Below, piece after piece: positions 1,733 through 39,142 of a stretch of DNA of 64,000 nucleotides (position 1 is its first letter; every line of letters starts with the position of its first letter). The notes beneath the pieces were generated by a model that saw only the letters and a list, made by a program, of their open reading frames with translations, did no database searches and was not told the origin of the DNA. The stretch spans positions 62,001-126,000 of the forward strand of contig CATOIK010000004.1 in assembly GCA_951800645.1 (NCBI GenBank), given 5' to 3'. Source of the stretch: an uncultured Eubacteriales bacterium (GTDB lineage Bacteria > Bacillota > Clostridia > Lachnospirales > Lachnospiraceae). Made by a program: the position numbers and the translations under genes.

Positions 1733-2119
1733 TTACTCCCCTATGTGTTCCATTCCCTGATTTAAAATGGTCTGAATATGGCCATCTGCCAGGCTGTAAA
1801 ATACGGTTTTCCCTTCCCGCCGGAAGTTTACCAGCCGCATCTGCTTTAAAATCCGAAGCTGATGGGAAATAGCCGACTGTCCCATCTGCAAAAGCGTGGC
1901 AATGTCGCACACGCACATTTCAGACTGACTTAATACATACAGAATCTTGATACGGGTCGAGTCCCCAAACACCTTAAAAAACTCCGACAGATCCAGAAGC
2001 TGCTGCTCATCCGGCATTACCTGCTCTACCTTGCTCACAATCTCATTATGAACATGCATAAACTCACAGGTGCCTTCGTCCACCTCCAGCTCAATCTGCC
2101 GTCTTTGCTCCTCGGTCAT
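1733..2119 (-). CDS. ArsR/SmtB family metal-responsive repressor
   Basis: MTEEQRRQIELEVDEGTC...LLDLSEFFKVFGDSTRIKILYVLSQSEMCVCDIATLLQMGQSAISHQLRILKQMRLV; ArsR ELCVCD-type metal site and wHTH. Confidence 0.93.
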   Translation of the reverse strand: MTEEQRRQIELEVDEGTCEFMHVHNEIVSKVEQVMPDEQQLLDLSEFFKVFGDSTRIKILYVLSQSEMCVCDIATLLQMGQSAISHQLRILKQMRLVNFRREGKTVFYSLADGHIQTILNQGMEHIGE

Positions 2120-2134
2120 AGAATTCCTCCCTCC

Positions 2135-2160
2135 AACATATGAACATCTATTCATATGTT
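2135..2160. promoter_or_regulatory. candidate ArsR/SmtB operator
   Basis: Perfect inverted repeat AACATATGAA-CATCTA-TTCATATGTT directly upstream of the ArsR ATG. Confidence 0.8.
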
Positions 2161-2239
2161 TATATTATCATATTCTTGTGAAATGTCAACTGATTAAATA
2201 AAATTTTATAAATTTGATAGGAAATTCCTATCAAAAAAC

Positions 2240-2362
2240 AAAGAGTCCGGTTCACCGGACTCTCGCGCCGGAGCGCGTCTGCGTCAGCAGACATTTTCCT
2301 TAAGCGCGAAGTACGCATCCCGCGGAGCGTTTTTGTTTCATAGGGAGAACTTTCCTATGAAA
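2240..2362 (+). repeat. multi-hairpin intergenic repeat, copy 1
   Basis: GAGTCCGGTTCACCGGACTC...CGCGCCGGAGCGCG...GTCTGCGTCAGCAGAC...CTTAAGCGCGAAGTACGC...TTTCATAGGGAGAACTTTCCTATGAAA; near-identical to copies at 6952, 14575 and 21738. Confidence 0.95.
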
Positions 2363-2365
2363 TGA

Positions 2366-2455
2366 AAAAGAGTTCGCCGAAGCGAACCCTTTTGTCGGAG
2401 CGCAGTTGCGCAAGCAACCATGTTTCTTAAGCGCAGAGTGCTCATCCTGCAGAAC
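2366..2455 (+). repeat. diverged copy of the multi-hairpin repeat, tandem to copy 1
   Basis: Shares CGGAGCGC, TTCTTAAGCGC and CATCC blocks; hairpin arms differ but still pair: GAGTTCGCCGAAGCGAACCC and GTTGCGCAAGCAAC. Confidence 0.8.
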
Positions 2456-2470
2456 TGTAAATCCCTCACG

Positions 2471-3367
2471 CTACTCCACGCACTTTCTGATAAATCCTTT
2501 CTCTCTGTGAAGCCTTGCATCCGCTTCTTCCCTGGATACTCCCATCAAAATCATAACGATAGCTGTTTTAATAGACATTCCTGCTTCTTTTAAAGCTGCA
2601 ACTGCCACCGCTTCTGAACACTCCGTACTATCCATGATAATGCGTTTTGCCCGATCCTCAAGTTTACGATTCGTCGCTTTCATGTCAACCATATAATTCC
2701 CATAAACCTTCCCGATGTGTATCATAGAAACGGTTGAAATCATATTGAGAATCAACTTCTGACAAGTACCCGCTTTTAAGCGAGTAGAACCAGTCAAAAC
2801 CTCAGGCCCCGCATCCACTTCTATCGCTACATCTGCATAAGCGGATAGAACAGCCTGTTTATTGCAGGAAAGGCTCACGCAAACAGCCCCCACCTCTTTT
2901 GCATATTTCAAGGCGCCAATACAGTAGGGCGTCCTACCGGATGCTGCAATCGCAATCACAACATCCTTTTCGTTCGTACCTACCTCTTTTAAATCACTTC
3001 TGGCCAATTCCTCGGAATCTTCTGCCCCCTCTTTTGCCTGTACAAATGCCGAACTTCCGCCTGCCATAACAGCAATCACTTCATTTGTTGTAGAAAAAGT
3101 AGGCGTACACTCTACCGCGTCCATAACCCCCATGCGTCCACTGGTTCCGGCACCTGCATAAATCAGCCTGCCGCCAATTTCCAAGGCATGCACAACATAT
3201 TTAACAACCGCTTCTATCTCAGGAATCGCTTCCCGGACAGATCCAATGACATTTGCATCCTCCTGATTCATTAAAATGAGTAATTCACGGATACTCATTT
3301 TATCCATATCTGCTGATCTTGGATTGCGCATCTCTGTGTTCAGATGCGCTAACTGTTCCTCACACAT
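2471..3367 (-). CDS. murQ: N-acetylmuramic acid 6-phosphate etherase
   Basis: LNTEMRNPRSADMDKMSIRELLILMNQEDANV...GGRLIYAGAGTSGRMGVMDAVECTPTF; MurQ SIS fold. Confidence 0.95.
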   Translation of the reverse strand: MCEEQLAHLNTEMRNPRSADMDKMSIRELLILMNQEDANVIGSVREAIPEIEAVVKYVVHALEIGGRLIYAGAGTSGRMGVMDAVECTPTFSTTNEVIAVMAGGSSAFVQAKEGAEDSEELARSDLKEVGTNEKDVVIAIAASGRTPYCIGALKYAKEVGAVCVSLSCNKQAVLSAYADVAIEVDAGPEVLTGSTRLKAGTCQKLILNMISTVSMIHIGKVYGNYMVDMKATNRKLEDRAKRIIMDSTECSEAVAVAALKEAGMSIKTAIVMILMGVSREEADARLHREKGFIRKCVE

Positions 3368-3386
3368 TTTTGCTCCACCCTTTCGT

Positions 3387-4238
3387 TTATTTGTCTTCAT
3401 TATGATCGCCTTTAGGCATATAAGTCTTCTTGACCTGAATGGTTGTCTCTTCGTAGTGCTGATTCAGATACATGGTATAAAGAATATCCACAACATTTAA
3501 CTGCGATATACGGGAAGACATCGCGCCACTTCGGATCAAGAACTCCGAGGCAGCCACATAGAGATTATAGTCTGCAAGCCTCGCCAGCTGTGAATCTGCA
3601 AATCTGGTAATTGCAATGAGTGTTGCTCCTTTAGCCTTTATCGTCTTTGCACATGTAATCATTTCTTCTGTAAGGCCGGAATAGCTGATAATAATACCGA
3701 GGTCGTCTTTGCTCAAATTTTTTGCATATAATAGCTGCAGATGCCAATCCTCTCCCAAATAGCAGCACTTGTTAATACGCAGAAATTTCATATACGCATC
3801 TCTGGCTACCAGATAAGAAGACCCCATGCCAAAAAGGGCAATACACTTACTTTTATCCAATAATTCTACACATTGCTGTAAAACCTGCTCATCCAGAAGC
3901 TTTCTGGTTTTTTCCAATGAGACAATATTTTTATATGTTACTTTCGTAATAATTTCTTCTAAAGTATCTGTCTTTTGTATATCTTCTTCCAGTTCGGTTT
4001 CCTTTCTAACTGCCAACTCAGCTGTCAAGGATTTTTGAAACTCGCGATACCCCGAAAAGTCCATTTTCTTACAAAGACGAATAACCGTAGCAGGTGAAGA
4101 AAATGAGGCTGCTGCCAGTTGATGAATATTACAGGCAACAGCCTCCTCTGGCTGTTCCAAGACAAAACGAACCACCAGTCGCTCTGCGTTACTTGCCTTT
4201 GCTTCGTATTCTTGAAAGCGAACAAGCACACTTTTCAT
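3387..4238 (-). CDS. RpiR/MurR family transcriptional regulator (HTH + SIS)
   Basis: N-terminal HTH ASFSSPATVIRLCKKMDFSGYREFQKSL and SIS domain GMGSSYLVARDAYMKFLRI. Confidence 0.9.
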   Translation of the reverse strand: MKSVLVRFQEYEAKASNAERLVVRFVLEQPEEAVACNIHQLAAASFSSPATVIRLCKKMDFSGYREFQKSLTAELAVRKETELEEDIQKTDTLEEIITKVTYKNIVSLEKTRKLLDEQVLQQCVELLDKSKCIALFGMGSSYLVARDAYMKFLRINKCCYLGEDWHLQLLYAKNLSKDDLGIIISYSGLTEEMITCAKTIKAKGATLIAITRFADSQLARLADYNLYVAASEFLIRSGAMSSRISQLNVVDILYTMYLNQHYEETTIQVKKTYMPKGDHNEDK

Positions 4239-6642: not shown

Positions 6643-6951
6643 TCTTTGGATATTTTATGCATATATGCAACTATATTCTGACTATTTTTCAATATTGGTG
6701 ATTTTTATGATTTTATCTCCATGCGTTACCGTTACAGTCAATGCTATCGGCCGGGCTATAAATGTAAGGAAAAGCAAAGCTTAACAACATAACCTCCACT
6801 GTAAAAATTGTACATCCTTCATCAAGTCACAAAAGAAATCGGGTCAAGAAGAACTCCTGCCGCTTTTCCCAAAAGAAATCCGCAAAACAAGCCGATTCTC
6901 AGCTGGCATAAAAACATATACGGAACGGAAATAGGACCCAATTTCCTAGAA

Positions 6952-7075
6952 TAAAGAGTCCGGTTCACCGGACTCTCGCGCCGGAGCGCGTCTGCGTCAG
7001 CAGACATTTTCCTTAAGCGCGAAGTACGCATCCCGCGGAACATTTTTGTTTCATAGGGCGAACTTTCCTATGAAA
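6952..7075 (+). repeat. multi-hairpin intergenic repeat, copy 2
   Basis: Near-identical to copy 1; abuts the rpsI terminator. Confidence 0.95.
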
Positions 7076-14425: not shown

Positions 14426-14574
14426 CTATCTCCTTATAATTTTTTCTATACTTCAATAAAATTTAGCCCTGTTTTGTCCTTCACTGACGCTATAATCAGA
14501 CTGGATTCTACAGGATCAATAAAGTTCTTATCCATGGATATTCCCTTCTCCTCTGTTTCCATTTTTACTTTAAA

Positions 14575-14697
14575 AAAGAGTCCGGTTCACCGGACTCTCG
14601 CGCCGGAGCGCGTCTGCATCAGCAGACATTTTCCTTAAGCGCGAAGTGCGCATCCCGCGGAGCGTTTTTGTTTCATAGGGCGAACTTTCCTATGAAA
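14575..14697 (+). repeat. multi-hairpin intergenic repeat, copy 3
   Basis: Near-identical; differs in the loop of the third hairpin (GTCTGC-ATCA-GCAGAC). Confidence 0.95.
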
Positions 14698-21737: not shown

Positions 21738-21862
21738 AAAAAGAGTCCGGTTCACCGGACTCTCGCGCCGGAGCGCGTCTGCGTCAGCAGACATTTTCCT
21801 TAAGCGCGAAGTGCGCATCCCGCGGAGCGTTGTTGTTTCATAGGGCGAACTTTCCTATGAAA
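21738..21862 (+). repeat. multi-hairpin intergenic repeat, copy 4
   Basis: Near-identical to copies 1-3; abuts the rplQ terminator. Confidence 0.95.
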
Positions 21863-38905: not shown

Positions 38906-39142
38906 AAAAAAAGTCGCCTCCTTTTCGCACTTTTGGGTTAAGTACGACAAGCGGTGACTGTACACATCTCCGTGTGTGTCATAGCAGACTCACACTGCGT
39001 TACTGCATTTACCTTCGTTCCTACAGCTGTTAAATTGGTACAGTGACTTGTCGTCAGTTTCCTAACTTGACATTCGCTCCACGGAAAACCTGCCATTTGG
39101 CAGCAACCTCACGCTTCACAGCTATCATGTCACAGCTTTTCT
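38906..39142 (-). promoter_or_regulatory. S10 operon 5' leader (~230 nt, structured)
   Basis: Long untranslated leader between promoter and rpsJ with CTGCCA/TGGCAG hairpin. Confidence 0.5.

Follow-up and report, generated by a model that had tools for sequence, protein, structure and literature searches.

The intergenic region between murQ and an ArsR/SmtB-family regulator gene was characterized in the window (the whole 64,000-nucleotide stretch of DNA analysed). Read in the sense of the repeat, murQ (N-acetylmuramic acid 6-phosphate etherase) is followed by a diverged repeat unit, a full canonical copy (copy 1) and a short third unit, past which lies the regulator gene (Table 1). Copy 1 starts immediately after the T-tract of the diverged unit, which now appears to be the visible terminator of murQ. 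A first-pass annotation of this DNA had described a canonical and a diverged copy in tandem, with shared blocks and with hairpin arms that had changed on both sides and still paired. Blocks and arms of both units were located where it had placed them, and both copies are real; the adjacent unit was refined to a diverged copy minus the 5' hairpin, and a third unit consisting of that hairpin only was added.

Table 1. Features of the murQ locus and further full copies of the element in the window.
Feature	Position	Strand	Basis or remark
ArsR/SmtB-family regulator gene	1733-2155		past the H1-only unit in sense
H1-only unit, TTTGATAGGAATTTCCTATCAAA	2213-2235	-	after copy 1 terminator; by eye; resembles other H1-only copies
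Full canonical copy (copy 1)	2237-2362	- (sense strand)	covariance model R1, 151.6 bits, E 2.7e-34
3' hairpin AGAGTCCGG-TGAA-CCGGACTCT with T-tract, the element's rho-independent terminator	2237-2263	-	
Hairpin H4, CGCGC-TCCG-GCGCG	2264-2277	-	covarying; elsewhere arms inverted, CGCC/GGCG type
Hairpin H3, TCTGC-TGAC-GCAGA	2278-2291	-	covarying (covariation analysis)
A-tract, proposed guide able to base-pair with the preceding terminator's T-tract	2330-2334	-	DNA fold; base -1 weakly associated with its pairing partner
5' hairpin H1, TTTCATAGG..CCTATGAAA	2336-2362	-	arms covary across species
Terminator of upstream diverged unit, T-tract TTTTTCA, landing site of copy 1	2363-2389	-	
Diverged copy without H1, right after murQ stop codon	2366-2453	-	BLAST, 70% identity
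murQ	2471-3400		upstream of diverged copy in sense
Further full copy, after terminator CTCCCCAGGACTTTAGTTCTGGGGAG and T-tract	6950-7075	-	covariance model
Further full copy, T-rich stretch upstream without clear hairpin	14572-14697	-	covariance model
Further full copy, after terminator AGCCGGTGCAGAAATGCACCGGCT and T-tract	21738-21862	-	covariance model

An open reading frame at 6822-7043 (ADADALRRESPVNRTL...) crosses a copy of the element. A protein reading of the element was rejected: the frame has no NCBIfam match and is disrupted by indels between copies. Lacking a family match, the frame is probably not a true gene, and many such entries may stand in databases. The sole Rfam match in the window is an S10-Clostridia ribosomal protein leader (39048-39127, minus strand). 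The first-pass annotation had given the repeat no family name, and Rfam searches at gathering and at permissive thresholds returned no match to a described family for the element.

The element is a chain of hairpins of about 126 nt, the 3' end of which is a rho-independent terminator. In sense order, H1 is followed by C-AAAAA, a small hairpin (CGC-TCC-GCG), GGATGCGCACT, a GGAAnATG stretch, H3, H4 and the 3' hairpin with its T-tract. In the minus-strand sense the arms of copy 1 read GAGTCCGG-TGAA-CCGGACTC and GTCTGC-TGAC-GCAGAC, and those of the adjacent unit GGGTTCGC-TTCG-GCGAACTC and GTTGC-TTGC-GCAAC; between species, the arms of H1 occur as TTTCAT/ATGAAA, TATCAT/ATGATA, CTTTAT/ATAAAG and TCTTAC/GTAAGA. 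Copy 1 folded better than all of its 200 shuffled versions (z -6.3), and the adjacent unit gave a weaker signal (z -3.0, 1 of 200 shuffles as good). Covariation was assessed at 29 base pairs, with 22 diverged copies drawn from many species. Standard pairing was kept in 97.9% of base-pair cells, and double-sided changes were found in 16 of the 29 pairs and in 81 cells, as compared with shuffle means of 9.8 and 21, respectively. When the partners were slid by 1-3 columns as a control, the signal collapsed to at most 7 pairs and 15 cells with double changes. Covariation in the hairpins is thus beyond chance, and on this wider alignment the earlier proposal that selection acts on folding, not on protein, was borne out. 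Neither outcome that the annotation had named as a refutation, an absence of covarying pairs or a match to a described family, was observed.

The own genome (G000; 2.4 Mb, 83% complete) contains at least 69 copies by the criterion of the left hairpin: a pattern for H1 with up to 3 mismatches matched 69 places, while its reversed control matched none. A pattern from the middle of the element matched 59 places, and BLAST listed 46 matches. Sequence was inspected in stretches around the copies and at some contig ends. Among full copies the median pairwise identity is 95.1% and some pairs are 100% identical, which indicates that the family was recently active or recently homogenised. The 3' side was shortened in 17 of 60 copies, 9 of these at positions 28-40, and the 5' side almost never. 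Many contig ends coincide with a copy, and the element breaks assemblies.

Two other repeats were seen next to copies or T-tracts. In the own genome, a repeat ending in GGTGCTAAGAACCGAAGCATGGAAG abuts the foot of H1 in at least four copies (L031:1-95, L111, L051 and L108), and two further contigs, probably L014 and L015, start at the very base where the two meet; it is probably an IS that targets H1. Another repeat (TTTACTGTGAAACATTAACTTCCGGGTGGCC), at the contig ends L106 and L181-L183, also occurs after T-tracts, once directly behind an element.

The main new finding is where the copies lie. Terminators were called strictly, by a stem of 5 or more, a loop of 3-10, a T-rich tail and a 3' stem end 3-12 nt from H1. 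Of the 61 copies that have host sequence upstream and could be scored, 45 lie behind such a terminator. Shifted positions at the same loci gave 0-3 hits in about 57, and dinucleotide shuffles a mean of 1.3 in 61 (maximum 5). Most of the 16 copies that failed the rule have terminators by eye, with longer loops or bulges, as in the pheS T-box terminator; for a few copies, such as window 14572-14697 and G000:C4:43897, inspection by eye revealed no clear terminator. The orientation of the element is always that of the upstream terminator. Tandem copies, direct repeats throughout, are a consequence of this choice of site: the second copy lies behind the terminator that the first one carries. The same arrangement was found at 29 loci, in about 29 other genera, nearly all with a T-tract upstream and most with a clear terminator stem. 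A T-tract lies on the left side of nearly all copies, and the target apparently centres on it, since about 3 of the 13 copies listed for G008 follow a T-rich stretch that shows no clear stem. Comparison of the T-tracts before and after the element revealed no consistent match that would indicate a target duplication.

By DNA search the element was present in 24 of 61 genomes (own and relatives; copy numbers for relatives are lower bounds) and in none of 24 other families of the order, each represented by one genome. The covariance model detected it in 149 of 299 genomes of the same family of gut bacteria, that is, in half of those sampled, nearly all of different genera and sometimes with tens of copies. 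The exact core was also found in one other MAG, from an uncultured Faecalicatena, which makes Lachnospiraceae the most probable family. A plasmid collection yielded no match, and among phages only 9 unannotated gut contigs matched (74-89% identity; including MT835858, MT836815 and MT837746), which could be either prophage or bacterial DNA.

Occupancy of orthologous sites differs between species. At rpsO-pnp, secG-rnr and a third site (gene names read from sequence context) a copy is present in the own genome and the terminator is empty in relatives. The pheS T-box terminator is followed by copies in at least six species, and these differ in subfamily and length: full in G008 and G001, H1-only or short in G000, G010 and G014, and with an internal deletion in G002. 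As each copy belongs to its species' own subfamily, the insertions were probably independent. Each copy separates the T-box terminator from pheS (L246 in G008, L254 in G001, L104 in G000 and others), and two are full-length with their own terminator ahead of this probably essential gene. In G293, three loci (L321, L324 and L326) carry tandem pairs from two subfamilies, with GAGTCCGG and GAATCCCGC terminators, in the same order and with similar H1 arms.

These differences in occupancy bear on whether the repeat is mobile at all. A regulatory RNA or terminator module that had been domesticated, propagated through gene conversion and duplication and retained to insulate transcription or stabilise mRNA 3' ends, could account for the strong covariation, which extends to every hairpin, the internal H3 and H4 among them, and for the apparent use of the diverged unit 2366-2453 by murQ. 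Such a module would hardly produce sites that vary in occupancy by species and have unrelated flanks, or copies behind the terminators of tRNA, T-box and protein genes alike, and we regard it as highly improbable. Among the three identities offered by the first-pass annotation (REP/BIME, small RNA, miniature mobile element), the last fits best; the decisive feature, insertion right after rho-independent terminators, had escaped that annotation. We conclude that the repeat is very probably a high-copy, non-autonomous mobile element that homes to terminators.

By definition, the palindrome of a REP sequence has a conserved tag, GTAG or CGTC, at its foot (PMC8266576). The repeat resembles a REP/BIME family, moved by a RAYT (TnpA-REP), in being high-copy, intergenic, palindromic and occasionally tandem. 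On inspection of the alignment, however, none of its hairpins (H1, H3, H4 and the 3' hairpin) has such a tag at the base, and the element, about 126 nt with several hairpins, occurs in a single orientation, without the inverted, alternating pairs of a BIME. Nor did the search that the annotation had suggested for an associated Y1/TnpA-REP-type transposase find a Y1 gene in the own genome, at 83% completeness. Membership of this class is therefore extremely improbable.

How would a terminator-homing element move? Insertion is in a single orientation, right after the T-tract of a rho-independent terminator and without a recognisable target duplication. Landing there would leave the upstream gene uninterrupted, and every copy would restore a terminator, which may serve as the next landing site; dozens of copies may be tolerated because landing is harmless and the terminator is renewed. 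With less certainty, the element would travel as folded single-stranded DNA, with an IS200-type Y1 (HUH) transposase acting in trans to excise and insert it. The T-tract of the terminator would be the left cleavage and target site, read by pairing with the A-tract GAAACAAAAA 5' of the internal hairpin. We consider this reading as a whole, a terminator-homing element for which an IS200-like Y1 transposase, acting on folded single-stranded DNA, is the probable mobiliser, to be reasonably probable. The assignment of a Y1/IS200-type enzyme as mobiliser is in itself tentative.

These steps have a parallel in IS200/IS605, where a Y1 transposase excises DNA in folded single-stranded form and inserts it 3' of a short target. 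The target of IS608 is retained on the left side of the insertion and is recognised by a guide located 5' of the hairpin (PMC5934647), and bases are neither gained nor lost on insertion of IS200/IS605 elements (PMC7923331). By the terminator rule, 13 of 17 IS200-clade elements in relatives directly follow a terminator, as compared with 0.4 expected, unlike the IS605-type elements, of which 2 of 9 do so. The IS200-clade elements also have an A-rich block ahead of the first internal hairpin; their ends differ from those of the element except for GAAACAAAAA. The IS200-clade elements behind terminators are at L113, L115-L118, L124, L132, L133, L138, L302, L304, L305 and L315, with a TnpA start like HTKW.CKYHIVF. 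When the element was folded as single-stranded DNA with its upstream T-tract, the T-tract paired with the A-tract and lengthened H1 (z -6.65). Across genomes, base -1, next to H1, is complementary to its partner within the element more often than not associated by chance (Fisher tests, p 0.0014 and 0.013, uncorrected for relatedness), and A-C mismatches are frequent in G000; this association is only suggestive of guide pairing.

The enzyme is not proven, because several element-rich and nearly complete genomes lack Y1. It is present in 16 and absent in 9 of 25 element-rich genomes; the nine are G278, G311 (closed), G293, G242, G195, G228, G223, G283 and G158, some of them complete. None of the 69 H1 sites of the own genome runs into a transposase gene or belongs to an autonomous copy with the same ends, no convincing guide sequence was found at the right end, and the presence of the element and of IS200 across the genus showed no clear correlation. 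In three cases a Y1 or RVT_1 locus of a relative is flanked by the element, each being an IS200 or a group II intron next to a copy; these were not counted as association because they are at about chance level for so common a repeat. The simplest view is still that of a mobiliser prone to loss, for which orphan REP families are the model.

The polarity of shortening, noted above, is not predicted for a DNA transposon unless selection guards the terminator side. Retention of the H1 end with loss of the far end is the polarity of reverse transcription, and it raises the alternative of a SINE-like retroelement, in which an antisense RNA would be copied from the nicked 3' end of the T-tract by a terminator-preferring reverse transcriptase, group IIC-like or other. 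The T-tract could prime on the A-tract of the element, and group IIC introns insert behind terminators (PMC7923331), a target position that the element shares. Group II introns were also found at the same junctions as the element (L158 in G019 and L145 in G010), one beginning right after the element's terminator and the other ending right before H1. Against this mechanism, RVT_1 is absent from G000, G001, G002, G004 and G008, the last 99% complete with near-identical copies, no promoter that could drive an antisense RNA was seen, and selection that preserves the terminator of the host gives just as good an account of the polarity. We regard reverse transcription as improbable. Identity of the element with a group IIC intron was rejected: it has no domain V, no RVT_1 intron-encoded protein and no Rfam match, and G000 has no RVT_1.

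Three genomes that carry copies (G223, G283 and G004; 98-100% complete) have neither Y1 nor RVT_1. An integron integrase acts on attC, and in a comparable way a mobiliser of neither class, of a kind so far not connected with such repeats, for example a host or phage HUH enzyme, a DDE enzyme or a site-specific recombinase, might act on terminator hairpins. The copies are cassette-like, each with a hairpin at its 3' end behind which new copies join. No candidate gene was found, however, and these genomes may simply have shed the mobiliser once the last burst was over, in the manner of orphan REPs; an enzyme outside both classes is unlikely. Rather doubtful, too, is the more general form, in which a mobility system with an enzyme new to such repeats uses rho-independent terminators as att sites. 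The element would read the hairpin and T-tract of the terminator through its A-tract guide, insert itself and leave a fresh terminator as the next target, and it would have spread family-wide without needing Y1 or a reverse transcriptase.

If the favoured reading of a mobile element that homes to terminators is true, it points to a strategy of general use to genomic parasites, which is to home to terminators, bring one along and land without harm. The copies are located intergenically and in regulated leaders such as that of pheS, so readthrough may change there. The element is also a case of structure-guided DNA insertion that is open to testing. No published description of it was found in the open-access literature, to which the search was confined (subscription journals were outside its scope).

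Several known systems share part of this anatomy. Like REP, BIME and REPIN sequences with their RAYTs, the element reaches tens of copies per genome, is intergenic and palindromic and expands in species-specific bursts; unlike them, it lacks the tag and inverted pairs, is longer, carries a terminator and lands behind terminators. Integron gene cassettes with attC sites resemble it in that the unit ends in a hairpin behind which tandem arrays extend, but no integrase is known here and the element has neither an attC consensus nor a cargo gene. Group IIC introns likewise land directly behind rho-independent terminators, and group II introns share junctions with the element; at 126 nt it is devoid of their domain V and encoded protein, and several genomes rich in it are without RVT_1. 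Non-autonomous (MITE-like, PATE-like) derivatives of IS200/IS605 have in common with it hairpins near both ends without terminal inverted repeats, no visible target duplication, a single orientation, a T-rich target on the 5' side and an A-rich block as a possible guide. The element differs from these in having no transposase found in its own genome and no parent IS with the same ends, in its hairpin-dense, covarying middle and in a target that is a whole class of structures, the terminators. It would thus be a non-autonomous bacterial mobile repeat that is new in its target and its anatomy.
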